Assembly: GCA_918797485.1 (NCBI GenBank)
Contig: CAKKNE010000004.1
Location: 434,001 to 498,000, forward strand
Reading direction: 5' to 3'
From: Pelagomonas calceolata
Lineage: Eukaryota; Sar; Pelagophyceae; Pelagomonadales; Pelagomonadaceae
Length of the DNA: 64,000 bases
Below are positions 4,977 through 62,250 of the stretch, piece after piece; position 1 is the stretch's first letter, and the number at the start of each line of letters is the position of its first letter. Under the pieces are notes generated by a model, which saw only the letters and a program-made list of their open reading frames with translations, did not search any database and was not told where the DNA came from. The position numbers and the translations under genes are program-made.

Positions 4977-6011
4977 GGCTGCGGCGTGGCGCGCGCGCGC
5001 GTGGCGGTCGCTCTTAGAGCTCTTGGAGAGTGTCTCAATAGAGATCACCCACCGGGTGGCGCTGGCCTTATCGCTGCGGCCGGCGCTATGAAAGGACAGC
5101 CGGAAGCCTCCGAGTAGGAGCCGTGAATCGCTCTCTGGGTCGCCCTCGAGCGCGTGATGTCGAATTAGCTAGCGGCCTATAAGACACACTAGCAATCAGC
5201 CGGCATCCAGGCCGATGCCAGCCGACGGGAGAGGGTGCCCGACGCATCTCATCATTAGGTAGCGACCTTTTTGGCTTGTTGGAGCCAGATGCTCATTGTT
5301 GTGTGTGACGCTGCGGCACGGCCCGAATCCGTCCTGTGGGGCCACGACGGCGTCGATCACGACGTGTAGCGACGCCTCCCTGATTTTCCGCGGCCGACGA
5401 GGATGCGTGCTCGTGTCCTCATCAGCAGCCTCGATCAATTGTGCATCAAGGAAGAGTAGGAGCCGGAGTCTTCGTCAAAAAATCAGCGTGAGGGACGCCT
5501 TCATGCACGAGATGCCGCCGCTGCAAGCTCGCTGCAAATGCTGCATCAGCGGATGAGCTGCTTATCTTGGATCCGCCCTCCGCCATCTTTCGTTCGGCGC
5601 CGGACGGCCAAGAAAAGGGCCAAACGCGCCGTAAGCGTTCGCGGTGGCATCGCTGAGGCCAGAACGCAGCATCGCGCTAGCATCTGGTGCAAAAAAAAGC
5701 GATAGCTGCGAACGCGGCGGCGGTCGGACGCGAGTTCGAACGTCACCAGTCCCAGCTTATCGCAGCGCTGCTGCCGCGAGCGGCCTATGCATACCTAGCA
5801 CTGCTCGGTATCATAGCGCAACGCGCATCAACTGCGAGTGCTGGCCGGAGGCTGGAGCCGCGGCCGCCGCGAATACCGCGGCGCTCGCCGAGAGGCCGCT
5901 GCGAGGCGGACGCGCTGCGGCCTCGCCGTGCCCCCGCGAGAGCCGCTGCGAGGCGGAGACGCGACCGTCGCTCCGCGCGCCGTGCGCGACATAATGTCCC
6001 CGCAGGTTAAA
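4977..6011. other. Long intergenic region between CobW and antenna genes
   Basis: About 1 kb between divergent genes. Apart from palindrome P1 at 5168-5193 I see no supported gene or RNA. The last 200 bp are extremely GC-rich and repetitive in GCG/CGC, which creates long spurious open frames on both strands. Confidence 0.5.
5168..5193 (-). promoter_or_regulatory. CTAG palindrome P1
   Basis: GCTAG...CTAGC arms around a TATAAGACACA core; reads as the consensus on the minus strand. It lies 192 bp upstream of the CobW start. Confidence 0.6.
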
Positions 6012-7083
6012 ATGAAGCTCGTCGTCGCGCTCGCGCTCGCCCCCGTGGCGTCGGCCCTCGTCGCGCCGTCGACGCCGGCCGCGTCCAAGACGGTCCTCGC
6101 CGACGCCAAGTCGGACCTCGTCGACCTCCAGAACTCGATCCCGGGCCCGCCCGGCTTCTACGACCCGCTCGGCCTCTCGGACATGTCCTTCGCTTTGGGC
6201 ATGCAGGGCAACGCCGACGGCGGCGTCGGCCAGGAGGCCACGATCGGCTGGCTCCGCCACTCCGAGATCAAGCACGGCCGCATCGCCATGGCCGCGTTCC
6301 TCGGCTTCATCGCGCAGTGCACGCCCCTCGTTTCCGGCGAGCACAAGTTCCTCCCGTACCGCGGCTACGTCGCGGGCTGCACGCCGCAGGAGCAGTGGGA
6401 CAACATCCCCCTCTACGGCAAGCTCCAGATCTTCGTGCTCGTCGGCATGCTCGAGTCGTACGGCGAGGGCGCGTCGCAGCCGGACGGCTACGTTCCTTAC
6501 CGTGTGGAAATCACACCCGACAATTCTTCACCAAGTCATGGCTCGGCGACGACGCGGCCGTCGTGGCTCGGTGCGCGGTGAGGAACCGGTACCGCCACGC
6601 CGTCGAGCAGGCGTCGCGTCGATGGCGTGGAGGCCATAATCCGAGACGCGCCGCGAGAATTTGATTACGCACAGGTCCACTACATGCGCGGCGGCAAGCC
6701 GGGCTTCTACCCCGAGATCAAGGGCAAGGGCGGCCCGGGCGGCCACTTCCTCCTCAACCTCTGGGACCCCTTTGGGTTCACCACCAAGCGCACCGCCGAG
6801 CAGAAGGAGCGTGGCCTCAAGTGCGAGATCCTCAACGGCCGCGCGGCGATGCTCGGCATCATGGGCATGCTCTCGGCCTCCACCGTGCGATCTCGGCGTC
6901 CCGCGGTCGTGGCTGGTTTCTTTTCGATTTTGAGGCCGTTCGGACCGAGTCGCGAGACCGCGATGCTCCGCGCAGGTGCCGGGCTCGGTCCCCTTCCTGT
7001 CGGGCATCGAGGGCTTCCCGCAGTACGCGGGCAACGTGATGGTCCCCTTCTCGAACGACTTCACGCTCACGTCGATGGCCTAG
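6012..7083 (+). CDS. Fucoxanthin-chlorophyll a/c light-harvesting protein
   Basis: Three exons, 6012-6491, 6675-6884 and 6976-7083, give 265 residues. Residues 1-15 form an ER-type signal ending in ASA, then LVAPS, consistent with a bipartite signal to a secondary plastid. The chlorophyll-binding helices are clear: E-x2-H-G-R at residues 85-90 in helix A and E-x2-N-G-R-A-A-M-L-G from residue 211 in helix C. Length suits the FCP family. The protein sits in the thylakoid and funnels excitation energy to the photosystems. The chosen ATG gives the targeting peptide; an upstream in-frame ATG at 5994 is less likely. Both introns are phase 0, and both downstream exons begin with GT. Confidence 0.92.
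6492..6674 (+). other. Intron 1 of the antenna gene (introner family A)
   Basis: A 183-nt GT-AG intron. It starts gttccttac while the next exon starts GTCCACTAC, an imperfect target duplication. The 5' terminal repeat CGTGTGGAAATCA (6500-6513 region) pairs imperfectly with the 3' end TGATTACGCACAG. An internal hairpin is formed by CCACGCCGTCGA and TCGATGGCGTGG. Confidence 0.75.
6885..6975 (+). other. Intron 2 of the antenna gene (introner family B)
   Basis: A 91-nt GT-AG intron. It starts gtgcgatc and the next exon starts GTGCC. It shares both ends with the RCC1-gene intron: a 5' GATC-CGGCGTCCCG block and a 3' GAGACCGCGATGCTCCGCG-CAG block. Confidence 0.8.
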
Positions 7084-7407
7084 AGCGGTTGTCGACTCGG
7101 TCTCGGGAGGTTTCGCACATTGGCGATCTGGTGCGGCCCCGGGTCCATTGCTAGGTTTGAAGTAAGCTTTGACGTGTACTTAAGGCCGTCGGCCGCGCCC
7201 ATCGGGGGCGGCGGACTGGGCATGAGTAATGGGAGCATCCTTCTTTGATCCGTGCGGTATTTTTTGTTTTTTTAGACACTGGCAAGTATAATCAGGGGGA
7301 GGGTCGCGTCCTGGCTCCTAGCGGCGGCGCGGCACAGGAAAGTGAGGGGGAGAAGGGGATGTACATCAGCGGCTCCGAGGTGCACGGCCTCGTCGACGTC
7401 GGCAGGC
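7084..7407. other. Spacer between convergent genes
   Basis: A 324-bp gap that should hold the two 3' UTRs of the antenna gene and the small secreted protein gene. I see nothing else in it. Confidence 0.5.
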
Positions 7408-7794
7408 TCAAGCCTCGTCCAGGGCGGCCCCGTTGTCCTCCGAGAGCTTGCGGGCCGACCCGAACTTGAGCTTGCGCGTCATCGGTGTCCCGGCCTTCTG
7501 CGCGGCGAGGTCGGCCTCGCGCTTCGCCTGGGCCTCCTGGGCGCGTCGGCGCGCCTCGCACGTCGGCGAGGGCGTCGGCGAGGTCGTCGGCGAGGGCGTC
7601 GGCTCATCCGTTTTCATGCTCCCAAATTCTAGGGCGCGACCGGCCGGTCTGGAAGCCTGGCCGTCCGCGGCGCCGCGTAGCTTCGGCGTCATGTCAAACG
7701 TGTCACCGACGGCCTCGGTGCTGCCGCGTGGGGTTGACGGCGCGCCGCAGGCCATCGCCATGGCGAGGGCCAGCACTAAGTGCTTGAGGGTCAT
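7408..7794 (-). CDS. Small secreted protein with Pro/Thr/Ser-rich linker
   Basis: 128 residues. A hydrophobic signal peptide (residues about 1-17) ends in a typical AxA-like cleavage region. The middle holds a PTPSPT repeat tract (about residues 64-78) encoded by tandem GTCGGCGAGG-type DNA repeats. Then comes a basic, helical segment rich in Ala/Arg/Glu. No known domain is recognised. The Pro/Thr/Ser tract is the kind that is O-glycosylated in extracellular proteins. Convergent with the antenna gene. It could also be the N-terminal exon of a longer secreted protein. Confidence 0.5.
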   Translation of the reverse strand: MTLKHLVLALAMAMACGAPSTPRGSTEAVGDTFDMTPKLRGAADGQASRPAGRALEFGSMKTDEPTPSPTTSPTPSPTCEARRRAQEAQAKREADLAAQKAGTPMTRKLKFGSARKLSEDNGAALDEA

Positions 7795-8229
7795 GTTCGA
7801 CTACCGCACGTGGCCTGCGAGGCGGACGCAGATGTTGTGTTAGGGGCCGGGCGCGGTCTCCCAGTTTTACCGGAGCCTCTCACGGACCGGCGCTGTGGTT
7901 TTGAGACGGGCCGGGGTAGTCTCGACGCCGCCCGGGTCTCAAACTTCAGCTGAAGACCAATTTGCATAAACCAAATATTCGACGACGCAGGAGTCAACGG
8001 GCGCCGAATTCGCATCTAGGGCCGCAGCCGTACCCATGAGGGTCACGGAGATGACGAGCGAAATCATTTTGCGGTGGTTTGGTGGTGATGATAAGCGCCG
8101 CTTTGGCAAGCCTGTTTTGGCCATAGCAATACGCATTAACCTTAGTTCGAGCCGTCCCTATCTTTTTGTATGGCGTCGGACGCTCTGGTGGACGCCTGGG
8201 CCCCGTATGAATCGTTTTCGCCTGCTTGC

Positions 8230-8490: not shown

Positions 8491-8524
8491 CGCGCGCAAG
8501 CGAACGCATCGCTCGCCAAAAAGA

Positions 8525-28925: not shown

Positions 28926-31900
28926 TTAAAACGGGGCATTGTATCGCCCGGTGTCGACGTACTCGGCCACCATAGATTTCACGAGGTGGTTGTCCACCAG
29001 GTGTAGGTGCTCCAACGGCGCGCCAGTCGTCGGCGACGTAGTGTTGCCGCGGGCAAGCCAGTCCTCGATGCTACGCCGGTCATAGGTATGCCCGTCCGCG
29101 GCAATCACCGGCCGCTCCATCAACTCGAGAGAGATCGGACAGCAGAGTCGCTCGGGGAGATCCACGGACCCCGCCGCCGGTGTATCCTCCGCGGCAGTCG
29201 CTGGCTCCTCCGCGGCAGTATCTGCCGGCTCCGCCGCCGGTTCCGCGTCCGGTACCGCCACAAGGGCCGTCCCCGCCGCGCGCCGCGCCTCGAACTCCAC
29301 TGTAGAGACGATTTTTCGCGCGTCAGCGGCGGCGACGCCCGCTTCAACCAGATCCTCGACGGTCAAGAACGGCAGCGCGTTCTCGTCGATCTGTTCGCGC
29401 GCGAAGACCGGACCCACGCGCTCCTCGAGGCCGAGGCGGTGGAGCAGCATGACAACTTCGTCGTGCTGTTGCGGCTCGTCGATGGTCGGCTCGGCGACGG
29501 CCTCCTCGACAGACGGCGCGTCGACGGTGGGTATCGGAGCAGCGCCGCCGCGTTTCCCCCTCCTCTTTTTCTTTTTTTTCTTGGCCGCGGCGGCGGACGC
29601 CTCGGCCGCTTCCTCGGCAGCGAGGAGCTCCGCGGCGGCCTGATCAGCAGCTTTCGCCTTGGCCTCAACAGACGCCTCGGACGCCGTCTCCGCCTCGTCG
29701 TCGTCCGGCGAGGGCGCGCGCTCGGCCTCTGCTCGCGCGGCCTCTTCGCGCTTGGCCGCTTCCCACTCTGCCAGCTTGCGCCGGCGCTCCTCCGCCTGTT
29801 TCCGCTTGGCCCGCAGCTTCTCCTCTTTCTCCTTCTCCCGCGCCTTCGACTTCCTCGCCGCGAGTTCCCTCTTCGAGGGCTCGGTGCGCGCGGCGGGGTC
29901 CGGGAGGGCAAAGCTGTCAGCCGCCTCGCGGCGCAGCCGGTCCGTTTCGGCCGCCTTCGCCTCGGCTTCTGCGGCCATGGCCTTGGCCTTGGCCCTGGCG
30001 CCGGCCTCGGCCTCGGCGCTGCGGAAGCGGTCGGCCACCTTGACGACGCGGCGCGTCCGTAGCTTCTCCTCGCTCGCGCGCTGGAACGAGCCGCCGTCGT
30101 CTCGGGGCGGATCCGTGAACTCCGGCATTTGTCCTGCCATATCGTCCGCCTGCTTCTCCGCGAACTCTAGTATCCGGCGGAAATCCTTGTGCGGCAGCGA
30201 ACGCACATACTCCAGGCACTCGGAAACCTGGTCTTCGCTGAACCCCAAAGGTCTTCGCAAACTATCACGAACCTCCATCGGCATGGTTAGCATCCTGGCG
30301 CGCCACCCCTCGGGACTGACCGGCGTTACAACGCCGTGGAAGCGGGCGTTCAAAATGGCATGTTGCAGTAGGGATGTAGCAACTCTCCACCGGGAGAACT
30401 CCTCCATATCCACCGGTTCCTCTTCATCGTCGTCCGAGTCTTGCTCCGAGTCCGAGTCCGACTCCGGCTCCGGTTCGGGCTTCGCCGCCGCGTGCCGCCG
30501 CCGCGGCCCGGGTCGCTCGCGCCGCTCCTCGTCGCGCAGGAGCTCGGCGGCCGCCTCGTCGGCGGCGCGGCGGGCCTGGTCGTCGGCTCGGCCGCGGGCT
30601 CCGTCGCGCGCGCGGTTGACGCAGTCGAGCGCGCGGTTGACGACGGCGCCGATCCCGTCGCGGACGGCTCCGGCGAGCCACCACCACGCGGTTTTGCCTT
30701 CGGCTTTGCCTTCGGCTTCGTGTGGGGCACCCGTCAGCATACCGAGGCCGCGCCAGAACAAGAGCCCGCCGCCGAAAGATTGGACCAAGACCGTCACCTG
30801 GCCGTCCGTGTAGAACGTGTCCGCGTACATCACGCAGAGCGTCGCGCATGCGCGGAACCAGGCTTGACGTTCGGACAGTAGTTTGTCAAATATCGCCCAG
30901 TAGCCGGTGAAGATGCAATGGAACATGAAGCAGTTGGAAGCGCACTGGAGGCTCAGCGCGATCGCCAGGCCTTTCTTGTTAAGCGTCTCAAACTGGCCCC
31001 GCTCGTACCAGGCGAAGACCGCCGCCAGAAGGACCAGGCCGACGTATCCCAGGGTGGTCGACAGCAACGAGAACTTGGTGGCATCCGAGGTGCGGGAGGC
31101 GCCGTCGCGCGGCCCCGCGCCGAAGAAGAAGCGCTTCGAGGCATTGAGCACGATCCCCCCGAAGAGCGCGCGGCACGCGGCATACTGTCCGAATATGTAG
31201 AACAGGGCGCCGGGCTGCATAAGTGCCTGCCCGCCGAAGTAGATCGCCAGGGCGCACCCGGCGTCGATGAACCAGGCGTTCATCTTGGGATGCCTGATGC
31301 GCGCGACGCTTCCTTGGAAGCCCCACGCGACGAGCGCAGCTCGCACGGAATACCGGCGCCAGGTGTAGGGGAGAAGACCCCGAGGACGGTCGAGCATCTC
31401 CGCCAGTCCGCCGGGTGAAAGTGCGTCGTTCTCGCCGAGGAATTCTGCGCGGGCCGCGGCCGCGACGGCGCCCGGCTCCATTACGAGCGCCAACACGAGA
31501 AAGAGCTTCCCGACGCGCCTCGTGCGTCCGCTCCAAATCCTATTCTCCACGCTCTCGTCGTAAACCCCTACATACGCCATCACGATCCACGCGAAACCAA
31601 CGATCAGGTGCCAGGCGTGGAACCAAAGCGCCGCCAGGAGCGCCAGGCCACCCGCGTAGACCGCCACCCGCCACTCTGCCCTGACATGAGACGCCAGCTC
31701 GTTTACACCTAACATGAAGTAGCCCACCGTGCCCATGAGCCCGAAAATGCACCTCGCGCCGTACCGGAGCCACTCCCACGCCCAGACGGCCCGCGGCGCG
31801 CCGCCCGCGATCAGGGCCGCGACGCGTATGCCCTGTGCGGTCTCCGCCGTAACCACCACACAGTAGCCTGCCGCGAACGCTGCGAGGCACAAGGCGACGC

Positions 31901-32729
31901 CCGCGACGGCGAGTTCCCTGTTGCTTAATCCGCGCTCGCGCCGCAGCGACACCCAGCGGCGCAGGTCGGTCGCGAAGCACTCTTCCGTGCGAGAGTCGAC
32001 ATCACACAAGCCGTGAAAGTAATAGTCATACGCCAGCGCCAGCGCGCCGCAGGTCACCGCGCAACGCGGGATGTACCAGCACGCAGGGACGGTGAGACCC
32101 AAGATGGATAGCAAAAAAATCCTATAGGGCAAGTCCTCTGCTAGGTCGTAGGTATATACGATCTCGTCCAGCCCTCGCCCTACCACATAAAACGTGGGGA
32201 ATCCCCTCGCGCACCAGTCCGCAACGAAGCCCGCCCAAGATTTGTACGCAGCTGCCCACGAGCTAGGGCACGCAGCCGGAACCACGAGCACGGCGCCTGC
32301 GACAACGCCTGCGACGGCGCCTTCCCCGACGCTTAATCCGCGCTCGCGCCGCAGCGAGACCCAGCGGCGCAGGTCGGTCGCGAAGCACTCGTCCACGAAC
32401 TCGTCGCCGCGCCAGCCCGCCGCAGAGTCGTGAACGTAGAAGTCATACGCCAGCGCCAGCCAGCCGCAGGTCGCCGCGCCAAGCGGGATGTACCAGCACG
32501 CAGGGACCGTCAGACCCAACATCAATAGTATAAAGATCAAATGGCTATCGTGGTAGTGCCAGTCGATCTCGTCCAGGCAGCGCCCTACCATATAAGCCCA
32601 GGGGAGTCCCCTCACGCACCAGGACACAGCGGAGACCACCCAAGACAAGCACGCAGCTGCCCACGAGTTAGAGTACGCAACGAGAGCCACGACGGCTGCG
32701 CCGACGACCGCTTTCCCATGGTCGACCAT
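28926..32729 (-). CDS. Polytopic membrane protein with coiled coil, SAM and U-box domains
   Basis: 1267 residues. The N-terminal half has more than ten hydrophobic helices. Within it, a block of about 140 residues is duplicated in tandem: VRGLPWAYMVGRCLDEI...ACWYIP...ECFATDLRRWVSLRRERGLS against ARGFPTFYVVGRGLDEI...ECFATDLRRWVSLRRERGLS. A charged coiled-coil region (about 700-1060), a SAM domain (about 1093-1143) and a U-box (about 1190-1262, LCCPISLELMERPVIAADGHTYDRRSIEDWL) follow. A membrane-bound E3 ubiquitin ligase is inferred. The next gene upstream carries a close copy of the SAM/U-box end. Confidence 0.75.
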   Translation of the reverse strand: MVDHGKAVVGAAVVALVAYSNSWAAACLSWVVSAVSWCVRGLPWAYMVGRCLDEIDWHYHDSHLIFILLMLGLTVPACWYIPLGAATCGWLALAYDFYVHDSAAGWRGDEFVDECFATDLRRWVSLRRERGLSVGEGAVAGVVAGAVLVVPAACPSSWAAAYKSWAGFVADWCARGFPTFYVVGRGLDEIVYTYDLAEDLPYRIFLLSILGLTVPACWYIPRCAVTCGALALAYDYYFHGLCDVDSRTEECFATDLRRWVSLRRERGLSNRELAVAGVALCLAAFAAGYCVVVTAETAQGIRVAALIAGGAPRAVWAWEWLRYGARCIFGLMGTVGYFMLGVNELASHVRAEWRVAVYAGGLALLAALWFHAWHLIVGFAWIVMAYVGVYDESVENRIWSGRTRRVGKLFLVLALVMEPGAVAAAARAEFLGENDALSPGGLAEMLDRPRGLLPYTWRRYSVRAALVAWGFQGSVARIRHPKMNAWFIDAGCALAIYFGGQALMQPGALFYIFGQYAACRALFGGIVLNASKRFFFGAGPRDGASRTSDATKFSLLSTTLGYVGLVLLAAVFAWYERGQFETLNKKGLAIALSLQCASNCFMFHCIFTGYWAIFDKLLSERQAWFRACATLCVMYADTFYTDGQVTVLVQSFGGGLLFWRGLGMLTGAPHEAEGKAEGKTAWWWLAGAVRDGIGAVVNRALDCVNRARDGARGRADDQARRAADEAAAELLRDEERRERPGPRRRHAAAKPEPEPESDSDSEQDSDDDEEEPVDMEEFSRWRVATSLLQHAILNARFHGVVTPVSPEGWRARMLTMPMEVRDSLRRPLGFSEDQVSECLEYVRSLPHKDFRRILEFAEKQADDMAGQMPEFTDPPRDDGGSFQRASEEKLRTRRVVKVADRFRSAEAEAGARAKAKAMAAEAEAKAAETDRLRREAADSFALPDPAARTEPSKRELAARKSKAREKEKEEKLRAKRKQAEERRRKLAEWEAAKREEAARAEAERAPSPDDDEAETASEASVEAKAKAADQAAAELLAAEEAAEASAAAAKKKKKKRRGKRGGAAPIPTVDAPSVEEAVAEPTIDEPQQHDEVVMLLHRLGLEERVGPVFAREQIDENALPFLTVEDLVEAGVAAADARKIVSTVEFEARRAAGTALVAVPDAEPAAEPADTAAEEPATAAEDTPAAGSVDLPERLCCPISLELMERPVIAADGHTYDRRSIEDWLARGNTTSPTTGAPLEHLHLVDNHLVKSMVAEYVDTGRYNAPF

Positions 32730-32887
32730 CTTGGCCCAAGCCTGACCTCAGCACCCACACACGAAGGGCAGCCCGCCGTCGGCTCGGACGGGTGCTGAAT
32801 GTATGCCAGCAGGCCGCGCGCGCAGCGTTTCCCAAGGTGGGCCTGCCTACCGGCGACTGGATCCCGCGCGCGAGGCGACCCGCTCTT

Positions 32888-39740: not shown

Positions 39741-42700
39741 ATGGCCTCGCCCCAGCCCCGCAAGCGGGCGCGCATCACGCGCGCGGCGCGCCGCGCGGCG
39801 ACCTTTGAGCTGCTGGGCGACGGCACGGCAAGAATAGCCCTCCCCGTCGACGACGCGCGCAAGAGTGCGGTCCTCGCGACCGCGTCGGGCGAGTTTCGCT
39901 GCGGCGGCCAGAACCAGGCGTCGTTGGAGGCGATAAAAAGGTTCCTGGCGGCGTGCGATGACGGCGGTGAGGTGGCGTCGTCGCCGCTGTCCCGGGCCGA
40001 CGCGGACGTGGCCCTGCGGTGCTGCGAAGCGGGTGCTACGCTCGAGTTACCTTCACTCGTAAAGCTCGGCGTGGCGCGCCTGCGGTCTGTGAGAGGCGCG
40101 ACGTCGCCGCCGACGGGGCGACGACGCTTGGCGCGGAACATCCAGGAGAGCGACAACTCGCGGTTGATCGACACGCGCGCCTCGGCGTTTTACTGGAACT
40201 TCACACTTCGCGTCGATGGCGCCTTGATGATCGCATGAGAGTCCCCGCGTCGCGTGAGTGACCGGAGGCAGTTTCGCGACGGCATCCGTGCCACACACGA
40301 GCGCGCGGCGCGGCGCGGCGCGGCGCGTGCCGGCCGCCCGAGGCACCCGCAGCTCGGCCGCACCGCGCCGCGCCTCTGCAAGCCGCGCGCCATTTCCGTG
40401 GCGCCGCGAGTGTTCAGAGAGAGCTACGCGTGAATGGCGTCGTGGCGTTGGACAGACACGGAGACAGACGCGAGAGACACATAGAGACAAAGACACAAAA
40501 AAAACACACACACAGGGCGAACGCGCCGATCTTCGGCATCGACCGCGACGGGCGCGTCGACGTCTGGAACCAGTGCGCCGCGCGCCTGACGGGCTTCGGG
40601 GGCGAGGAGGTCGCGGGGAAGCGGCTGGTCGAGGAGTACATCACGGACGATTATAAAGCAAGGGTGCAGGAGGTCTTCACGAAAGCTTTAGCGGGCGAGG
40701 AGACGGCGAACTTCGAGTTCCCGCTCGTCACCAAGGGCGGCGTCGTGCTGCAGATTTTGTTGAACGCGACGACGCGCCGCGACGACCGCGGGCGCGTCGT
40801 CGGCGTCGTCGGCATCGGCCAGGACATCACGGCGCGCATGAACCAGGAGCAGGAGTACGCGCGCCTCATCGACGCGGCGAATGCGCCCATCTTCGGCATC
40901 GACGTCGAGGGCCGCGTGAACGTCTGGAACCAGTGCGCTATTCGGTTAACGGGCTTCGACGCCGGCGACGTCATGGGCCAGCACCTCGTCGACGACTTCA
41001 TCACGGAGGACTACAAGGAGCGGGTCCAGGACGTGTTCACGAAGGCGCTGAACGGCGAGGAGACGGCGAACTTTGAGTTTCCCCTGGTGACGAAACCGGG
41101 CACGCGCGTCGAGGTCCTGCTCAACGCCACGACGCGCCGCGACGAGAAGAATAGGGTCATCGGCGTCGTGGGCATCGGCCAGGACATTACCGCTCGTATA
41201 AATCAGGAGCAGGAGTACGCCCGTTTGATCGACGCGGCGAACGCGCCGATCTTCGGCATCGACGTCGAGGGCAGCGTGAACGTCTGGAACCAGTGCGCGA
41301 TCCGCCTGACGGGCTTCGACGCCGGCGACGTCATGGGCAAGCACCTCGTGAACGAGTTCATCACGGACGACTACAAGGACTCGGTGCAGGGCGTGTTCAC
41401 GAAGGCGCTGAACGGCGAGGAGACGGCGAATTTCGAGTTTCCTCTGGTGACGAATCGTGTGGAAACCAAAACTTCGGCGCCCCACGCCATTCGCTTCGTC
41501 TGCTCGATGGCGCGGAGGTGGACGACGCACTAGTAGGACTTCCCTGGCTCACTGGTCGAGTTCCACACAGGTGACCAAGGCCGGCACGCGCGTGCAAGTG
41601 CTGCTCAATGCCACTACTCGAAGGGACGAGAAGAACACGGTCATCGGCGTCGTCGGTATCGGCCAGGACATTACGGCCCGTATGGCGCAGGAGCAGGAGT
41701 ACGCGCGCCTCATCGATACCGCGAACGCGCCGATCTTCGGCATCGGCGTGCACGGCCGCGTCAACGTCTGGAACAAATCCGCCACGAACCTCACGGGCTT
41801 CACGAGCGAGGACGTGATGGGCCGACATTTGGTGAACGAATTCATTACGGAAGATTACAAGGAGCGCGTCCAGGAGGTCTTCAGAAACGCACTGAATGGC
41901 GTCGAGACGGCGAACTTTGAGTTTCCCCTGGTGACGAAAATGGGGACACGCGTCGAGGTGCTGCTGAACGCCACTACTCGCAGAGACGAGCAGAAACACG
42001 TCGTCGGCGTCGTGGGCATCGGCCAGGACATTACGGCCCGTATAGCGAAAGAGCAAGAGTACTCCCGTTTGATCGATACGGCGAACGCGCCCATTTTCGG
42101 CATTGACCTCAACGGCCTCGTGAACGTGTGGAACCGCAACGCGTCAAAGCTCACGGGCTTTGCGAGCGAGGAGGTGATGGGCCGGAACCTTGTGAACGAA
42201 TTCATTACGGAGGATTACAAGGAGCGCGTGCAGGACGTCTTTAACAAGGCCTTGAACAACGAAGAAACGGCGAACTTTGAGTTTCCTCTAGTAACAAAAG
42301 CGGGCGTCCGCGTCGAGGTGCTGCTGAACGCCACGACCAGAAGAGACGAGCAGAACCGCATCAGTGGTGTGGTCGGCATCGGCCAGGATATCACGGCACG
42401 CATGAACCAGGAGCAAGAGTACGCGCGCCTCATTGACGCGGCGAACGCGCCGATCTTCGGCATCGACGTCGAGGGCAGCGTGAACGTCTGGAACCAGTGC
42501 GCTATTCGGTTAACGGGCTTCGACGCCGGCGACGTCATGGGCAAGCATCTCGTGAACGAATTCATCACGGACGACTACAAGACCTCGGTGCAAGGCGTGT
42601 TTACGAAGGCGCTCGAGGGCCGCGAGACGGCGAATTTCGAGTTTCCTCTAGTAACAAAAGCGGGCACGCGCGTGCAAGTGCTGCTCAACGCCACGACGCG

Positions 42701-45700
42701 CCGCGACGAGAAGAATAGGGTCATCGGCGTCGTCGGCATCGGCCAGGACATTACGGCCCGTATGGCGCAGGAGCAGGAGTATTCAAAGCTGATCGACACG
42801 GCGAACGCTCCGATCTTCGGCATTGACTTGAAAGGTCTCGTGAACGTGTGGAACAAAAACGCCAGCGATGTGACCGGCTTCACGAGCGAGGACGTGATGG
42901 GGAGGCACCTCGTGAACGAATTCATTACGGAGGACCACAAGGAACGTGTCCAGGAGGTCTTCACGAAGGCGCTAGACGGTCAGGAGGCGGCCAATTTCGA
43001 GTTCCCGATTGTAACCAAGGCCGGTACGCGCGTCGAGGTGCTGTTGAACGCCACTACTCGCAGAGACGAGTCGAACCACGTCATCGGCGTCGTGGGCATC
43101 GGCCAGGACATTACGGCCCGTATAGCGAAAGAGCAAGAGTACTCCCGTTTGATCGATACGGCGAACGCGCCCATTTTCGGCATTGACCTGAACGGTCTCG
43201 TGAACGTGTGGAACCGCAATGCGTCCAAGCTCACGGGCTTTGCGAGCGAGGAGGTGATGGGCCGGAACCTTGTGAACGAATTCATTACGGAGGACTACAA
43301 AGAGCGCGTCCAGGACGTCTTCACAAAGGCGCTGAACTGCGAAGAAACGGCGAACTTTGAGTTCCCGTTGGTGACCAAAGCGGGCGTCCGCGTCGAGGTG
43401 TTGCTGAACGCCACTACTAGAAGAGACGAGCAGAACCGCATCAGTGGCGTGGTCGGCATCGGCCAGGATATCACGGCGCGTATGAACCAGGAGCAGGAGT
43501 ACGCGCGCCTCATTGACGCGGCGAACGCGCCCATCTTCGGCATCGACGTCGAGGGCAGCGTGAACGTCTGGAACCAGTGCGCTATTCGGTTAACGGGCTT
43601 CGACGCCGGCGACGTCATGGGCAAGCACCTCGTGAACGAATTCATCACGGACGATTACAAGACCTCGGTGCAGGGCGTGTTCACGAAGGCGCTCGAGGGC
43701 CGCGAGACGGCGAACTTCGAGTTCCCGCTCGTGACCAAAGCGGGCACGCGCGTGCAAGTGCTGCTCAACGCCACGACGCGCCGCGACGAGAAGAATAGGG
43801 TCATCGGCGTCGTCGGCATCGGCCAGGACATTACGGCCCGTATGGCGCAGGAGCAGGAGTACGCGCGCCTCATCGATACCGCGAACGCCCCGATCTTCGG
43901 CATCGGCGTGCACGGCCGCGTCAACGTCTGGAACAAATCCGCCACGAACCTCACGGGCTTCACGAGCGAGGACGTGATGGGCCGACATTTGGTGAACGAA
44001 TTCATTACGGAAGATTACAAGGAGCGCGTCCAGGAGGTCTTCAGAAACGCACTGAATGGCGTCGAGACGGCGAACTTTGAGTTTCCCCTGGTGACGAAAA
44101 CGGGTACGCGCGTCGAGGTGCTGCTGAACGCCACTACTCGAAGAGACGAGTCGAACCACGTCATCGGCGTCGTGGGTATCGGCCAGGACATTACCGCCCG
44201 TATAGCCCAGGAACAGGAGTATTCAAAGCTGATCGACACGGCGAACGCCCCGATCTTCGGCGTCGATCGCGACGGTCTCGTGAACGTGTGGAACAAAAAC
44301 GCCAGCGACGTGACGGGCTTTTCCACCGACGAGACCATGGGCAAGCACCTCGTGAACGACTTCATCACGGAGGACTACAAAGAGCGGGTCCAGGAGGTCT
44401 TCACGAAGGCCCTCGACGGCGACGAGACGGCGAACTTTGAATTCCCTCTCGTGACGAAGGCCGGCACGCGCGTCGAGGTCCTGCTGAACGCCACGACGCG
44501 CCGCGACGCCGAGGGTAGAGCGAGTGGCGTCGTCGGCATCGGGCAGGACATTACTGCTCGTATAAAAAAAGAGCAGGAGTACGCGCGACTCATCGATACC
44601 GCGAACGCGCCCATCTTCGGCATTGACTTGAAAGGTCTCGTGAACGTCTGGAACAAAAATGCTAGCGATGTGACCGGCTTCACGAGCGAGGACGTGATGG
44701 GCCGACATCTGGTCGACGACTTCATCACGGAGGACCACAAGGAACGTGTCCAGGACGTCTTCACGAAGGCCCTCGAGGGCGACGAGACGGCCAATTTCGA
44801 ATTCCCGATTGTAACCAAGGCCGGTACGCGCGTCGAGGTGCTGCTTAACGCCACTACTAGAAGAGACGAGGCGAATCACGTCATCGGCGTCGTGGGCATC
44901 GGCCAGGACATTACGGCCCGTATGGCGCAGGAGCAGGAGTACGCACGTTTGATTGATACAGCGAATGCGCCGATCTTCGGAGTCGACGTGAATGGCCTCG
45001 TAAACGTGTGGAACAAAAACGCCAGCGACGTGACGGGCTTTACGAGCGAGGACGTGATGGGCCGGCACCTGGTCAACGAATTCATCACGGACGACTACAA
45101 GGACTCGGTGCAGGGCGTGTTCACGAAGGCGCTGAACGGCGAGGAGACGGCGAATTTCGAGTTTCCCCTGGTGACAAAACCGGGCACGCGCGTGCAAGTG
45201 CTGCTCAATGCCACGACGCGCAGAGACGAGCAGAAACACGTCGTTGGCGTCGTGGGCATCGGCCAGGACATTACGGCGAGAATAGCCCAGGAGCAGGAGT
45301 ACGCGCGCCTCATCGATACCGCGAACGCCCCGATCTTCGGCATCGACTCAAATGGCCTGGTCAACGTGTGGAACCGCAACGCGTCGAATCTCACGGGCTT
45401 TTCGAGCGAAGACGTGATGGGGCGACACCTCGTGAACGAATTCATCACGGACGATTTCAAGGAGCGCGTGCAGAACGTCTTCATCAAAGCTCTCGCGGGC
45501 GTCCAGACGGCGAACTTCGAGTTTCCTCTAGTCACAAAAGCGGGCGTCCGCGTCGAGGTGCTTCTGAATGCCACTACTCGAAGGGACGAACACAACCGCA
45601 TCAGCGGCGTCGTCGGCATCGGCCAGGACATTACGGCCCGTATAGCTCAGGAACAGGAGTACTCGCGTTTGATTGACACCGCGAATGCGCCCATCTTCGG

Positions 45701-48700
45701 CATTGACTTGGAAGGTCTCGTGAACGTGTGGAACAAAAACGCCAGCGACGTGACCGGCTTCACGACCGAGGACGTGATGGGCCGACATTTGGTGAACGAA
45801 TTCATCACGGACGATTACAAGGAGCGCGTGCAGGCCGTCTTCAGAAACGCACTGAATGGCGTGGAGACGGCGAACTTCGAGTTCCCGCTCGTGACCAAAG
45901 CGGGCGCGCGCCTCGAGGTGCTGCTGAACGCCACTACCAGAAGAGACGCGCAGAACCGTGTGACCGGCGTCGTGGGTATCGGCCAGGACATTACCGCGCG
46001 CATCGCCCAGGAGCAGGAGTACTCGCGTTTGATCGACACGGCGAACGCGCCGATCTTCGGCATCGACCGCAACGGCCTGGTCAACGTGTGGAACCGCAAC
46101 GCGTCGAAGCTCATGGGCTTCGCCGGCGAGGAGGTCATGGGCCGCAACCTCGTGAAGGACTTCATCACGGACGACTACAAGGAGCGCGTCCAGGACGTGT
46201 TCACGAAGGCGCTCGAGGGCCGCGAGACGGCGAACTTCGAGTTTCCCCTCGTCACGAAGGCCGGCGTCTCCGTCCGGGTCTTACTGAACGCCACGACGCG
46301 TAGAGACGACCAGGGCAAGGCGACGGGCGTCGTCGGCATCGGCCAGGACATCACCGCGCGCATCGCCCAGGAGCAAGAATACGCGCGGCTGATCGACACG
46401 GCGAACGCGCCGATTTTCGGGATTGACCTGGAGGGCCGCGTGAACGTCTGGAACCAGTGCGCCTCGCACCTCATGGGCTTCGAGACCGACGACGTCATGG
46501 CGCGCGCGCGGCGTCCGTCCGTTGTGAAATGTTTTGATGGCTCACTCACCCCCATCGCAGGGCGCGCACCTCGTGAGCCGCTTCATCACGGACGACTACA
46601 AAGTAAGCGTGCAGAACGTCTTCACGAAGGCGCTCGTGGGCGTCGAGACGTCGAACTTCGAGTTTCCCCTCGTCACGAAGGACGGCGCGCGCGTGCAGAT
46701 TCTGTTGAACGCCACGACCAGACGCGACGAGCAGAACCGGGTGATTGGCGTCGTGGGCATCGGCCAGGACATTACCGCGCGCATCGCGCAGGAGCAGGAG
46801 TACTCTCGCCTCATCGAAACGGCGAACGCGCCGATTTTCGGGATTGATCGCGACGGCCGCGTGAACGTCTGGAACACGTGCGCGTCGAACCTGACGGGGT
46901 TTGGCGTCGCCGAGGTCAAGGGCCGCCACCTGGTCGACGACTTCATCACGCCCCAGTACAAGTCGAGCGTGCAGGACGTCTTCAGCAAGGCCCTGTCGGG
47001 CGTCGAGACGGCGAACTTCGAGTTTCCCCTCGTGACCAAGGCCGGGAAGAGCGTGGAAATTCTGCTGAACGCCACGACGCGGCGCGACGAGCGCGACCTG
47101 ATTATTGGTGTGGTCGGCATCGGCCAGGACATCACGGCGCGCGTCGCGCAGGAGCAGGAGTATGCTAGATTGATCGACACGGCGAACGCGCCGATCTTCG
47201 GGGTCAACGTGAACGGCCTCATCAACGTCTGGAACAAGAACGCCGAGACGGTGACGGAGTTTAGTAGGGAAGATACGAAGGGCAAGAACCTGGTGAGGGA
47301 CTTTATCCGCGAGGAGCACCGCGACCGCGTGCAGGAGGTCTTCACGAAGGCTTTGAATGGCGACGAGACGGCGAACTTCGAGTTCCCGCTCGTGACCAAA
47401 GCTGGTAAGTCTGTGGAGATTCTGCTGAATGCTACTACTAGAAGAGACGAGCAGGGCAACGTCATTGGTGTTGTGGGTATTGGCCAGGACATCACGGCGC
47501 GCATCGCGCAAGAACAAGAGTACTCGAGGCTCATCGACAGCGCGAACGCGCCCATCTTCGGAGTGGACATGAACGGCGACGTTAATGTGTGGAACGTCTG
47601 TTCCGCAAATTTGACCGGTTTCTTGGCTTCGGAGACATTGGGCAACTCGCTGGTCGACAACTTCATCACGCCTCAATATAGACCCATGGTGGCCGAAGTC
47701 ATTTCCCGAGCTTTGAGAGGTATTGAAACCGCAAATTTCGAGTTTCCCCTCATGAACAAGACCTCGACCAAACTTATTAGTATCTTGCTGAACGCTACCA
47801 CTCGTAGAGATGAAACGGGTAAGGTCGTAGGCGTCGTCGGCATCGGCCAGGACATCTCCGAGAGCCGAGCGAAGCAGGACGCCATCATGAAGCAGCGCGA
47901 GGCGGAAGCGGCCCAAGCGGCCCAGGCCACCATCTCCGCACATGTGTACCACGAGATCCGGAACGTCGTGGGCGCTGTACTAGCGCTAGCTGAACGAGTC
48001 TCAGAAACAGTCGAACTCAGTCTGTTGGCCGGTTCGCCCTTCGACGCGGAAGAAGCGACGAAGCTCGCGAAGCGCATGAAGGTCGAGGAGCTGCGAGGCG
48101 CACTCACGTCACTCGGTACGGATACGCAAGGTACGAAACCACTACTTGTTGAGCGGTTAGTCGATGCGAGGAAGACCGAAAGCAGTCAGCGAGGCCAGCA
48201 GATGATGCAGCGCCTACCGGACGCGGTCCGCAAGCTCACGGAGCATCAAAGGGTGGTCTGTCAACACGCAGTCAATACGTTAAATGACATGTTAGATGTG
48301 GCTAAGATCGAGAACGGGACTTACTTACCGAAGGAAGATGTGGTTGATCTCGGGGCACTTTGTGCGAGGGCTGCGGAGCTGCAGGGTCCTCGGTTGCAGC
48401 ATGCTGTGGAGTTGATCGTGGACGCGCCTCAGCCCGGTTCTCTGGTGGTATTAACAGATAGAGTGCTGCTCCTCCAGTTCATGACCAATCTACTGTCGAA
48501 TGCGGCGAAGTTTACTTCCACAGGCAAGGTACTTATTTTCTGTGCCGCGCTCGAACACTCGTCGTCGTCCATGGCGGACGTCGTTTTGGCGGTCGCGGAC
48601 ACGGGCCCGGGCATCGCGCCGGCGCAGCAGAAGCGGGTGCTGATGGCGTTTACTACCGGTGATGCGGTGCCGCATGAGGATTTGTCGGACACTGCTGCTG

Positions 48701-49755
48701 CCAGTCGTAGTACGGGTATCGGTTTGAGGTTAGCTGACTTGATCGCGAATGTCTTGTCCTTACACGGCGGTCCCGAGGTCGAGGTCGACGAGGAAGATAC
48801 AGAAATGAAGGAAGCTGATGCTCTACCGAGGGTGCCTTCGGCCACGAACTTATACGAGCATACGCCGCAGCGACGGTGGTGGCGCGCTCTACGTACGGGA
48901 ATCCAGCTCGAGTCGCCGGTCTGTCCAGATGTCAAAACGACGCTTGGGAGTAGGGGTGGCCCTGGCACACTACTGTGGCTGGCCACAAGGATGAAACGCG
49001 CACCCGCGGGTAGTGTGGAGGACACGATGGTCGAGGAGCGGCCGTCGGACAACACTAGGGTACTAAAACTGCGAGGCAAGATGCGCGTGCTCGTCGTGGA
49101 CGACCAGCGGACGATGCGCCAGATGGTGGCGACGCTGTTCCAGCGCTTATGTCAGGAAAATGCCGGTCTGGAAATAGAGTTAGATACGGCCATTTCCGGG
49201 GAGCATGCGACGCGGTTGACTCGCGTAAGACGTTATCATGTCGTTACCATGGACCAGCAGTTATCCGAAAGTTATTGTAGCGCCGTCTCCGCAGCAAGGG
49301 AGAAGAAGCGCCAGGATAACGAGCTGAAGACCGACACGCTGTCGCCGCGGGACGGCTTCGCTTTATCGTTAACGTTCGGCCCGGACCGCATCCAGAACGC
49401 CCAAAAAAGACTCGCCTATTTCGAACGTGAAATCGACGGCCAGGCGCCCGAGCCCGGCGACGGGACCATGGTCGGCCACGAGGCCATCCGGGCGATTCGC
49501 GACCTGGAGGTGCGGCAGCAGCGGCCGCCGACGGTCTGTTTTAACTTGACCGGGAACATACTAGAAGCCGATCGACGGCAGTACAGCGCGAACGGGTCGT
49601 CGGGCGTCTTGCCGAAGCCGACGAAGTTGAGCGACTTGAAGAACGCGTTGCTGGACGGCGTGCCGACGTTCTTGGCCAACGGGAGCTGCGTGCAACGCGG
49701 CAACGGCGTCTTCCACGCGTTCGGCGAGCTGCAGCTCGCCGACCGGCGGCGATAG
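39741..49755 (+). CDS. Hybrid histidine kinase with 20 tandem PAS domains, SAP insert and receiver
   Basis: Four exons, 39741-40174, 40516-41446, 41571-46499 and 46561-49755, give about 3162 residues. A unique N-terminus (about 140) leads into 20 PAS repeats of 120 residues, each running ANAPIFGID, NVWN, LTGF, GRHLVNEFIT, ETANFEFPLVTK, LLNATTRRDE, GVVGIGQDIT. None has the LOV cysteine. Then come the H-box YHEIRN (His about 2562), a SAP motif (about 2598-2634) between the H-box and the rest of the dimerisation helices, and the ATPase motifs: FMTNLLSNAAKF, DTGPGIA, GIGLRL. The receiver begins VLVVDDQ near 2938, with phospho-Asp near 2996, an insertion of about 65 residues, and the closing LPKP. 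All catalytic motifs look intact. Probably a cytosolic or nuclear sensor kinase; no membrane helix is seen. Confidence 0.88.
40175..40515 (+). other. PAS-gene intron 1 (GC-AG)
   Basis: A 341-nt intron, phase 2, joining SRLIDT to ANAPIFG. The donor is GC, with no usable GT nearby. It contains the introner core CGCGTCGATGGCG (40209-40221), a GGCGC tandem run near 40305-40325, and ends in (AC)n-AG. Frame and homology with the repeat support it. Confidence 0.7.
41447..41570 (+). other. PAS-gene intron 2 (introner family A)
   Basis: A 124-nt GT-AG intron, phase 0, in PAS unit 3. It starts gtgacgaa and the next exon starts GTGACCAA. GTGTGGAA at the 5' end is inverted as TTCCACAC at the 3' end. The other PAS units have a single uninterrupted copy of this site. 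Confidence 0.85.
46500..46560 (+). other. PAS-gene intron 3 (GC-AG)
   Basis: A 61-nt intron, phase 0, in PAS unit 17. It starts gcgcgcgcg and the next exon starts GGCGCGCAC. Removing it restores the DVM-G-x-HLV motif in frame. Confidence 0.75.
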
Positions 49756-57804: not shown

Positions 57805-57825
57805 ATCGATCAATTGTGTGACACA

Positions 57826-58965: not shown

Positions 58966-59333
58966 AGCGGCGACGGCGTGAGGCACAGCTTGACCAGCCC
59001 TGCTATATATTTGCGCACACAGATACGGCAATTCGCTTTCGCAGCCAAGTTCGATCGATAGATAACTCACACAGGCAAGATATCTATTGATCAAGCACTG
59101 CGCTTAGGCCTTTTTTGCTCGGCGGGTGAGCCGGTGCTAGCGTCCTGTAAGACACTAGCAAAAAACCGACACTCGGCAGCGCCGCACCTGGTGCACAGCC
59201 GAGGCCACAGACGTCGCGCGGACGACGACCAGCAGCAGCCACGCCGTCGGCGCGCCCCCACAGCGCGGCCGGCAGCCAGTGAGGACCAGTTCCACAGCCC
59301 CAGTGAGGCGGGCAGCCTCCAGCATCGTCAAAG
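58966..59333. other. Bidirectional intergenic region with P15
   Basis: A 368-bp spacer between divergent genes with palindrome P15 at 59136-59159; nothing else recognised. Confidence 0.5.
59136..59159 (-). promoter_or_regulatory. CTAG palindrome P15
   Basis: Minus-strand GCTAGTGTCTTACAGGA, CGCTAGC. 171 bp from the snurportin ATG and 174 bp from the MORN ATG. On the plus strand it is followed by AAAAAA, as is P17. Confidence 0.7.
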
Positions 59334-61187: not shown

Positions 61188-61207
61188 TGTGTGCTTTTTG
61201 TTTTTTT

Positions 61208-61229
61208 CTAGTGTGTTACTGATGCTAGC
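61208..61229 (+). promoter_or_regulatory. CTAG palindrome P16
   Basis: CTAGTGTGTTACTGA, TGCTAGC. 97 bp upstream of the next ATG and 20 bp after the MORN stop. Confidence 0.6.
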
Positions 61230-61325
61230 TTCATGTTTTTGCGCCTCAATTTGCTTGGTGGACGAGCGCCGCTTCCCACAACTGCGCACGCACGATTCGG
61301 CCTTTCTGCACGTTAGAATTGGCAA

Positions 61326-62207
61326 ATGGTGGCCACGCGCACTGCCAGGCGCGCGGCCCACAACCGTAGCCTCCCATTTCTGGCGCTGTGGTCGCGAGAC
61401 GATGTGACCGACTCGGTGGTGGATTTTCTGCCGACGCCGACCATCGCGGTGCTTCCAATAGTTGCCAAGCCACTCCGCGCCGCGCAGCAGCGCGTGCTCC
61501 TCACAGCAATAAGACGGCGCGGCAAGACCGCGCCGAGCCCGCCGACGACGCAAGCGTGCCTCGAAGTACTTGGTCTCCCTTATCTCTGCGAGAAGTGGGA
61601 GCGAGGGCTGGAACAATGGAGAGTGGAGCACAGTGCTGCGTACACCGTGAAACCATTCCGCGGCGGTGGATCCTGTCTCGAGATCGTCAAGGGCAATTCT
61701 AGTATGGGTCCTGGAACAGGAGTACACCGAGGTCTTGCTCGCGACATTGACGGCGAGAATCTGCTGGTGACACGGTTCCGGGTGACAGTGAGCCTCGGGA
61801 ATCAAACTGACGCCGTGGGCTACGTATTGCTCTGCGGTCCTGGAGGGGATTTCTTCGATTCCATGGGCGGCGTGAGATTCGACAAAGACCGTTTAACGGG
61901 AGTACAGACACTCGTTTGGTGTAGTTTCAGAGGAGGAACACGGGACCTCTGCAATGCGAAGTCCAACAGGCCATACACCGTCGATGCGATCTTTCATCAT
62001 GAATCGGCGACTACGAACCGCGGCTCGGTCGACATTTCCGTCAACGGGCGACCGGTCGTTACGGGGCTGGCAGTCAATTACAAGCCCCTCTCGTCGATCA
62101 GTGTCTACAACTTTTCCGGTGGAAGATGTGAGATCGGAGAAATCGAGGTGTGGTACAAGGTGGCTGAAGCAAATCAGATGTGGGATGAATACGCCCCCAT
62201 CCTATGA
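61326..62207 (+). CDS. F-box-like protein with beta-sandwich C-terminal domain
   Basis: 293 residues. Residues about 15-60 (LPFLALWSRDDVTDSVVDFLPTPTIAVLPIV) have an F-box-like pattern, though weak. The C-terminal ~190 residues alternate beta strands in the manner of a concanavalin/LamG-like sandwich (LLVTRFRVTVSL, VGYVLLCGPGG, SVDISVNGRPV, ISVYNFSGGRCEIGEIEVWY). If the F-box is real, this would be a substrate receptor of an SCF ubiquitin ligase with a sugar- or peptide-binding sandwich. Function otherwise unknown. It is packed tightly between neighbours, each spacer holding one palindrome. Confidence 0.5.
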   Translation: MVATRTARRAAHNRSLPFLALWSRDDVTDSVVDFLPTPTIAVLPIVAKPLRAAQQRVLLTAIRRRGKTAPSPPTTQACLEVLGLPYLCEKWERGLEQWRVEHSAAYTVKPFRGGGSCLEIVKGNSSMGPGTGVHRGLARDIDGENLLVTRFRVTVSLGNQTDAVGYVLLCGPGGDFFDSMGGVRFDKDRLTGVQTLVWCSFRGGTRDLCNAKSNRPYTVDAIFHHESATTNRGSVDISVNGRPVVTGLAVNYKPLSSISVYNFSGGRCEIGEIEVWYKVAEANQMWDEYAPIL

Positions 62208-62226
62208 GTAAGTATGTGCAACGCGT

Positions 62227-62250
62227 GCTAGCGGCATGTAAGACACTAGC
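62227..62250 (-). promoter_or_regulatory. CTAG palindrome P17
   Basis: Minus-strand GCTAGTGTCTTACATGC, CGCTAGC. 156 bp upstream of the kinase ATG, 19 bp after the previous stop, and followed on the plus strand by AAAAAAA. Confidence 0.7.

Follow-up and report, generated by a model that had tools for sequence, protein, structure and literature searches.

In yeast, general regulatory factors such as Reb1, Abf1, and Rap1 bind in the proximal promoters of a very large number of genes; the sites of Abf1 are bipartite with a spacer, and general regulatory factor sites function regardless of orientation. In mammals, the motifs of bidirectional promoters, such as those for NRF1 or ZNF143, are long, near-palindromic or bipartite, and common to divergent gene pairs. 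Yeast general regulatory factors are also reported to limit divergent noncoding transcription (PMC9481977). Among stramenopiles, the oomycete core elements INR, FPR, and DPEP are described as each present in an estimated 7-18% of genes, with matches peaking within 50-100 nt of the start codon and a forward bias (forward to reverse ratios of 1.8-5.9; PMC3599244). In pelagophytes, introner elements of about 210 bp lie in introns (PMC9481584).

The element described here was found in a window of 64,000 nucleotides (the whole stretch analysed) from the pelagophyte Pelagomonas calceolata, where an initial annotation had reported a recurrent CTAG palindrome marking gene starts. Judged from sequence, it is very probably a direction-neutral proximal promoter site for a putative asymmetric factor or heterodimer, present in roughly 40% of the 5' regions sampled and typically about 200 bp ahead of the start codon. 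No published description was found in the literature searched, which agrees with the annotation's statement that it knew no matching motif, and the terms CTAG and palindrom are absent from the main text of PMC3599244.

Abundance in the window, the genome, and other collections

Seventeen CTAG...CTAG pairs in the window fit the annotated description (Table 1); their numbering, P1-P17, was rebuilt from coordinate order and agrees with the stated carriers of GTCTTAC (P2, P3, P5, P7, P10, P15, and P17). Both exact arms, CTAGTG-N6-14-CGCTAG, are present in 14 of the 17 sites, while windows simulated by Markov models (orders 1-3, 60 each) averaged 0.03-0.07 such sites and never had more than 1; the annotation's own pattern matched 10 times, again against a simulated maximum of 1. 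The recurrence of the motif is therefore real. Taken singly, P4 and P11 are inseparable from chance, although both lie within divergent spacers. The core word GTCTTAC alone is weakly in excess, with 9 matches (7 of them inside sites) against 4.4 expected, a count reached in 3 of 100 shuffles.

Table 1. Positions, sequences, and gene context of the 17 sites in the window
Site	Position	Strand	Sequence	Context	Remarks
P1	5169..5192	-	CTAGTGTGTCTTATAGGCCGCTAG	divergent spacer, CobW gene / chlorophyll-binding antenna gene	exact arms
P2	8229..8250	+	CTAGTGTCTTACAAGACGCTAG	upstream of DEAD_2/Helicase_C_2 gene	exact arms; Pfam
P3	11959..11980	+	CTAGTGTCTTACAGACCGCTAG	tandem spacer, upstream of trehalose-6-phosphate synthase/phosphatase gene	exact arms; Pfam
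P4	19681..19698	-	CTAGTGGGTTATAACTAG	divergent spacer; coding calls at distances of 141 and 160 bp	doubtful degenerate copy, right arm AACTAG
P5	25153..25173	-	CTAGTGTCTTACGATCGCTAG	divergent spacer	exact arms
P6	27110..27132	+	CTAGTGTGTTACTTGGCCGCTAG	tandem spacer, upstream of LIM-like gene	exact arms
P7	32889..32909	+	CTAGTGTCTTACATGCGCTAG	tandem spacer, upstream of minus-strand U-box gene 28953-32738	exact arms; Pfam
P8	34016..34037	+	CTAGTGTCTCACACTACGCTAG	divergent spacer, U-box gene / DHHC gene	exact arms; Pfam
P9	36595..36616	+	CTAGTGCCTTACATGCCGCTAG	divergent spacer, RCC1-repeat gene / gene without Pfam match	exact arms
P10	38254..38275	-	CTAGTGTCTTACAAACCGCTAG	tandem spacer, 415 bp from TFIIS-type zinc-ribbon gene	exact arms; Pfam
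P11	39334..39353	-	CTAGTGTAAGAAGGTACTAG	shares divergent spacer with P12	doubtful degenerate copy, right arm TACTAG
P12	39578..39598	-	CTAGTGTGTCCAAAGCGCTAG	divergent spacer	exact arms
P13	49986..50006	-	CTAGTGTATCAATGACGCTAG	tandem spacer	exact arms
P14	57060..57079	+	CTAGTGCCTTAGTGCGCTAG	divergent spacer, Rce1-like gene / DUF2237 gene	exact arms; Pfam
P15	59137..59158	-	CTAGTGTCTTACAGGACGCTAG	divergent spacer, snurportin gene / MORN gene	exact arms; Pfam
P16	61208..61228	+	CTAGTGTGTTACTGATGCTAG	about 100 bp before open frame at 61326	one-arm variant, right arm TGCTAG
P17	62228..62249	-	CTAGTGTCTTACATGCCGCTAG	tandem, upstream of protein kinase gene	exact arms; Pfam

Across the 32.4 Mb genome, CTAGTG-N6-13-CGCTAG occurs 4103 times against 36 in the reversed control, and 2378 times against 21 when the outer G and C are added to the pattern. 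With 16,667 genes predicted for the genome (PMC9481584), this amounts to approximately one site per four genes.

Matches in other collections were few. In IMG/VR, CTAGTGTCTTACAN{2,6}CTAG matched in 12 stretches, none of which contains CGCTAG; these low-GC contigs form two groups (10 and 2) with near-identical flanks within each, and viral use of the site was rejected, as the matches look like two recurrent viral loci matched by chance. A collection of 84,980 prokaryote species, which may leave out records close to the genome of the window, gave four matching contigs in two 'Spirochaeta' MAGs. Taken whole, neither MAG has an excess over the reversed control (9 vs 10 in G001, 1 vs 55 in G002). 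The nine sites of G001 lie in five contigs (C18, C141, C146, C169, and C182), and the three that were compared, C141 (L012), C146, and C182, match the P. calceolata genome at 79-94%; in G002, piece L010, compared from position 2093 onward, matches at 90-95% over 2093-3615 and does not match over 3617-8000. Bacterial use of the site was rejected, and the MAG contigs were treated as mis-binned or chimeric relatives. A k-mer search with the sites masked yielded a second frequent word, ACGCCATCG, 50 copies of which fall in 7 convergent, 21 tandem, and 6 divergent spacers and 16 coding calls; several copies have longer flanks in common, and on placement and shared flanks it was dropped as a promoter motif, looking instead like part of a dispersed repeat.

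An asymmetric, bipartite grammar

The consensus of the element is GCTAGTG-TCTTACAnnn-CGCTAGC, which is bipartite and asymmetric. As a rule, one arm carries TG and the other CG: genome-wide, this form accounts for the 4103 matches given above, while TG/TG is a minor form (133 vs 9 in the control) and CG/CG is at background (43 vs 63). The annotated palindrome consequently survives as an approximate description and fails as a symmetric one, and a perfect palindromic homodimer site, which needs interchangeable arms, was rejected on these counts. The left half, CTAGTGTCTTACA, is seldom alone, with CGCTAG 2-8 bp further on in 1353 of its 1599 copies. When one mismatch per arm was allowed, no excess was seen (149 vs 141 in the control); such relaxed matches, including 29 relaxed sites that were dropped, were left out of the counts.

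Most copies are 21-22 bp long, and the 100 matches listed span 18-25 bp, the whole range that the search pattern allowed, a correction to the annotated 19-26 bp. Among the same 100 matches, the inner spacer occupies every length from 6 to 13 that the pattern allowed, with 10 in 56 of them; this variability is loose for a rigid dimer site and counts against the explanation preferred here.

The grammar also bears on an RNA element, in which the CTAGTG...CGCTAG strand would form a hairpin with a G.U wobble and function as a small RNA or within 5' leaders. The TG/CG asymmetry would then be a U.G wobble, and RNA folds of four of the 17 copies gave -4.7 to -15.7 kcal/mol (z -1.6 to -5.6). However, DNA folds of the same four copies are weak in three, CG/CG arms, which would pair fully, show no enrichment, one mismatch per arm brings no excess such as compensatory changes might yield, and the even orientation (22 sites toward the gene and 27 away) would leave about half of the copies antisense in the leader, so that an RNA element is very improbable. 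At the gathering threshold, Rfam gave no match in the window.

A tiny mobile element or its remains, for instance an introner-like piece or a short insertion that duplicated a 4-bp CTAG target, has in its favour that CTAG...CTAG resembles a target-site duplication flanking a 13-14 bp insert, and that the genome's introns reportedly peak near 210 bp, the length of Aureococcus introner elements (PMC9481584). Insert and arms nevertheless follow one fixed grammar that includes the TG/CG difference. Outside 6 bp on the left and 3 bp on the right, the flanks hold no more than 0.18 bits per position (53 sites, 18 bp each side); since they are nearly without information, the copies do not look like pieces of longer repeats, and a transposable or introner-like element with a longer sequence common to its copies was rejected. 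The annotation's view that these are not simply recent transposed copies is supported.

Placement beside genes and persistence in a relative

Placement was assessed in 294 kb, about 1% of the genome, in 23 tiles, 20 of them on two chromosomes. Among spacers of at least 60 bp, a site is present in 22 of 45 divergent, 13 of 54 tandem, and 1 of 38 convergent ones, which supports the annotation both in that the element marks gene starts and in that divergent pairs share a copy while tandem genes use one singly. Sites are mostly outside coding sequence: 4 of 47 sampled sites are under coding calls, each within the 5' part of the call. Equal richness of 3' spacers and exons, which the annotation had named as evidence against itself, was for the most part not what these counts gave.

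An exact site is present in 49 of the 122 sampled 5' regions, upstream of many unrelated genes, and absent from 73, the latter a point against the explanation preferred here. With the ATG placed, the end of the site lies a median of 200 bp upstream (interquartile range 164-234, n=49), and 35 of the 49 are 130-250 bp from the ATG; in 5000 sets of positions drawn uniformly within the spacers, the corresponding number averaged 13.6 and never exceeded 25. In genes with a site, A exceeds T on the gene strand between the ATG and about -175, and this skew disappears near the site, which is weakly consistent with transcription starting just downstream of it; the trend from 0 to -250 was used, and short spacers slightly contaminate the nearer bins of the profile.

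The sites show no preference of orientation, in line with the annotation's remark that orientation varies, and by sequence placement the element appears to be orientation-independent. The annotation's suggestion of a core promoter was not supported: core elements such as those of oomycetes show an orientation bias (PMC3599244), and this element has none, so a core promoter of the fixed-orientation INR, TATA, FPR, or DPEP type fits less well than a proximal promoter element.

Open chromatin is expected in divergent spacers, and exact copies of one variant are spread across all six large contigs. Both would suit a site for boundaries, insulation, replication, or chromosome structure, whose link to 5' spacers would be no more than a preference. 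Against this, the distance to the ATG is limited in tandem spacers too (153-426 bp in 12 of 12), and one site per about four genes is, in our judgement, more than expected of origins or domain borders; a structural site of this kind is highly unlikely.

That the element marks mostly housekeeping-type genes, as the annotation proposed, is conjectural; within the window, some Pfam-matching genes have a site and some do not. At P1, where the genes are named by Pfam, the left coding call is 157 bp away and the antenna gene 813 bp. P2 lies under a 5'-extended stop-to-stop open frame with in-frame ATGs on either side; the likely start of its gene is the ATG near 8525, about 275 bp downstream. The Pfam match of the LIM-like gene near P6 is slightly under its cut-off, and the open frame after P16 was missed by the dicodon caller.

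Conservation was compared on one 8 kb contig of one relative, whose spacers have largely diverged, and a counterpart was found at all four testable sites. Two are aligned though most of the spacer is unaligned, one is reversed and unaligned, and one is degraded; the degraded and reversed counterparts could also reflect loss and regain. None of the four places compared by eye is clearly empty. This persistence amid diverged flanks, together with 5'-specific placement centred 200 bp from the ATG, makes a mobile element extremely improbable.

A putative promoter factor and known systems

For the proximal promoter site favoured here, we infer a bound protein, its kind, and its effect on chromatin and transcription as follows. 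One sequence-specific nuclear factor would bind the element in either orientation, and it may be an obligate heterodimer or a protein whose two DNA-binding modules are not equivalent. Once bound, it would open or position chromatin and thereby support transcription of a single flanking gene or, where the pair is divergent, of both. A broader proposal is tentative, its chances falling slightly short of even: one factor, restricted to pelagophytes or to Pelagomonas, would organise the promoters of a third to half of all genes through one obligatorily asymmetric bipartite site, whichever way the site faces, and would set starts on both sides at a fixed distance, with the site reversible in evolution and its place kept. 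The site of about 22 bp offers a handle for purifying its putative factor, placing gene starts, and designing expression constructs; the evolution of a bidirectional promoter system in a compact genome can also be studied through it.

As with the yeast general regulatory factors, the element is probably a proximal promoter site at many genes and has no fixed orientation, and it is bipartite as the sites of Abf1 are. The yeast factors are reported to limit divergent noncoding transcription (PMC9481977), while here one element commonly lies between two coding genes, and its protein is putative. Its sequence, about 22 bp with strict arms, is presumably unrelated to the sites of Reb1, Abf1, and Rap1. 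With NRF1 and ZNF143 sites it shares its length, its near-palindromic or bipartite build, and its occurrence between divergent gene pairs, and it differs from them in sequence. Like the oomycete core elements (PMC3599244), it is a candidate stramenopile promoter element found by sequence in a minority of genes; unlike them, it lies about 200 bp from the start codon and has no orientation bias. Pelagophyte introner elements are also short, numerous, and of the same lineage, but the element described here is about 22 bp long, lies 5' of genes, and has flanks almost without shared sequence.

Abundance and arm grammar of the element

Enumeration of CTAG pairs at most 32 bases apart recovered the 17 copies (P1-P17) that the initial annotation had listed in the window. 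Fourteen match CTAGTG-N6-14-CGCTAG exactly, P16 has a single altered arm, and in P4 and P11, which are doubtful as true copies, the right CTAG lacks a preceding CG. These 14 exact-arm sites compare with a mean of 0.03-0.07 and a maximum of 1 in simulated windows (Markov orders 1, 2 and 3; 60 per order). The core word GTCTTAC alone is in weak excess in the window, with 9 occurrences against 4.4 expected, a count reached in 3 of 100 shuffles.

The genome scan covered 32,445,274 bases on 8 contigs; the available text of PMC9481584 describes the P. calceolata RCC100 assembly as six nuclear contigs (32.4 Mb), a plastid and a mitochondrion, with 16,667 genes and 0.45 introns per gene. Genome-wide, the arms alone occur 4103 times against 36 for the reversed control, arms with outer G and C 2378 times against 21, and the full consensus CTAGTGTCTTACAN{2,8}CGCTAG 1353 times against 0. 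One 22-base variant recurs in 43 exact copies spread across contigs C1-C6, with none on C7 or C8 in the whole-genome scan.

The description of the element as a palindrome holds insofar as the arms resemble an inverted repeat, but they are not interchangeable: TG on one arm and CG on the other is the rule, TG/TG forms a minor class (133 versus 9 controls), and CG/CG stays at background (43 sites versus 63 controls). Among 100 listed sites, the spacer ranges over the 6-13 bases permitted by the pattern, with 10 bases in 56, 9 in 16 and 11 in 12. Core sequences comprise TCTTAC (56 sites), other YSTTAC forms (12), YSTTTA-like forms (9), TGTCR (9) and others (14). The favoured flanks are TTG on the 5' side and CT on the 3' side. 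Since CTAGTGTCTTAC words lie inside a full site in 26 of 26 cases (294-kb sample) and CTAGTGTCTTACA is followed within 2-8 bases by CGCTAG in 1353 of 1599 cases genome-wide, the two halves seem to be required jointly, and the complex reading them is probably asymmetric.

Placement relative to genes

Placement was assessed in 294 kb, comprising the window and 23 further stretches, each 10 kb long and fixed in position beforehand (10 on C1, 10 on C2, and one each on C3, C5 and C6). A dicodon model, fitted to 94 long open frames, supplied the coding calls; it can miss genes and leaves introns unjoined, so that some "tandem" spacers may be introns. Four stretches (L034, L042-L044; 10 kb each) carry one or two calls apiece covering 52-95% of bases, which indicates very long open frames there. 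A dispersed repeat containing the words ACGCCATCG and GATTTCCACA, possibly an introner-like element, runs through the sample; ACGCCATCG has 50 copies in 294 kb, 21 of them in tandem spacers, and a ~60-base piece of L062 (Table) has dozens of matches on all six large contigs.

Coding calls occupy about 227,940 of the 294,000 sampled bases, yet only 4 of 47 exact-arm sites fall under them; of the others, 23 occupy divergent spacers, 13 tandem ones and 1 a convergent one, and 6 lie at stretch ends. Each of the four sites under a call sits in its 5' portion, with the first in-frame ATG downstream of the site in L039 and L040 and ATGs on both sides in window P2 and L028. Among spacers of at least 60 bp, a site occurs in 22 of the 45 divergent ones, in 13 of the 54 tandem ones and in 1 of the 38 convergent ones, this one being 2148 bp long. 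The equal frequency in exons or 3' spacers that the initial annotation had set against its own proposal was thus not found, and divergent pairs often have a site in between, as it had stated.

A site is present in 49 of the 122 5' regions to which an ATG could be assigned, and the median distance between the ATG and the end of the site is 200 bp (IQR 164-234; 153-426 bp in the tandem-only subset, n=12). In 35 of the 49 the distance is 130-250 bp, whereas 5000 random placements within the same spacers put 13.6 there on average and never more than 25. Orientation varies as reported, with 22 cases pointing toward the gene and 27 away from it, divergent sites being counted once per adjoining gene in both distance and orientation figures. 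Although the site strand is able to fold as RNA, this evenness, the lack of enrichment of the fully paired CG/CG form and the lack of excess of one-mismatch arms make an RNA hairpin very improbable.

A Pfam scan of 37 coding segments of the window placed beside sites genes for CobW, DEAD_2 helicase, trehalose-6-phosphate synthase/phosphatase, LIM-like, two U-box, DHHC, RCC1, TFIIS-type zinc ribbon, Rce1-like, DUF2237, snurportin, MORN and protein kinase; a methyltransferase and another U-box gene adjoin the doubtful P4 only. Genes without a nearby site include EamA, DnaJ, TPR and MyTH4-FERM, and inspection of these 37 segments revealed no clear functional split. The window also holds a very large gene or open-frame group rich in PAS-like repeats (Table).

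Coordinates of features in the window, the P. calceolata genome and related contigs
Feature	Sequence	Position	Remark
Open frame missed by coding caller	window	61326	
Very large gene or open-frame group	window	40427-49743	many tandem PAS-like repeats
Pfam PAS matches	window	40427-41524	
Intervening frame	window	between the two PAS matches	PAS-like character judged by eye only
Pfam PAS matches	window	46537-49743	also HATPase_c and SAP; sub-threshold response-regulator match
Piece of dispersed repeat	L062	1484-1545	~60 bases
Stretch matched by L012	C6	2236569-2243161	
Oppositely oriented site	L012	5353-5373	versus C6 near 2239186
Further site	L012	462	beyond compared part of P. calceolata genome
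Algal match	L010	2093-3615	90-95%; 2093-8000 compared
No algal match	L010	3617-8000	
Probable chimeric join	L010	near 3616	

Sites in related DNA

Contig L012, which is assigned to a Spirochaeta MAG, matches C6 at 84-94% in its main pieces and is evidently DNA of a relative. In their alignment, coding DNA mostly retains ~75-98% identity per 100 columns and spacer DNA is largely gapped or near random. Within the shared stretch P. calceolata has four exact sites. Two of them pair with an L012 site in the alignment, differing from it by a substitution plus a one-base indel in one case and by a single substitution in the other. The third has an unaligned, oppositely oriented counterpart in the same spacer, which suggests reversal, or loss and regain, with the place retained, and the fourth has a degraded form, CTAGTGTCTTTTATCTAG. 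A mobile element is very improbable, given flanks nearly without information past a few bases and no clear empty site seen by eye at these four places, in keeping with the earlier view that the copies are not simply recently transposed.

The site in L010, a 77-kb "Spirochaeta" contig, is preserved at 22 of 22 positions within a stretch ~95% identical overall, and is hence of little weight. L059 and L062 represent two more relatives; at the place matching the L062 site, P. calceolata lacks the exact same 22 letters. Five contigs of the public Spirochaeta MAG MED672 (C18, C141, C146, C169 and C182) carry the algal site and are probably mis-binned, since the three compared, C141, C146 and C182, match the algal genome at ~79-94%.

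Proposed promoter role and known systems

The position of the sites 5' of genes, their limited distance from the ATG, their lack of a preferred orientation and their survival where the flanks have diverged argue for a proximal promoter element, which a putative protein factor would read as double-stranded DNA. In genes that carry the site, the gene strand has more A than T over the interval between the ATG and about -175; at -175 to -250 this skew is gone. The limit weakly suggests that transcription would begin a short way downstream of the site.

The main texts of three Pelagomonas papers (PMC9481584, PMC13284251, PMC12054182) mention no motif, promoter or palindrome, the Chrysophaeum genome paper (PMC10366177) no promoter, palindrome, CTAG or cis-regulatory term, and the Phytophthora binding-site paper (PMC3520976) no CTAG or palindrome. 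A viral early motif is described in the available text of an AaV/Aureococcus paper (PMC5917014). A literature match to four site strings returned one paper, on diphthamide, rejected on its unrelated title and abstract. The initial statement that no described motif matches holds for these texts and for the titles and abstract openings listed in further searches, mostly of non-subscription papers.

Its proposal of a core promoter fits less well, since oomycete core promoter elements, in the available text of PMC3599244, differ from the site in position and are orientation-biased, whereas the site is not. The same text reports over-represented, orientation-unbiased motifs lying 75-300 nt ahead of the start site, called probable enhancers or proximal elements, and the site resembles this class. 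The closest working analogy is with the general regulatory factors of yeast.
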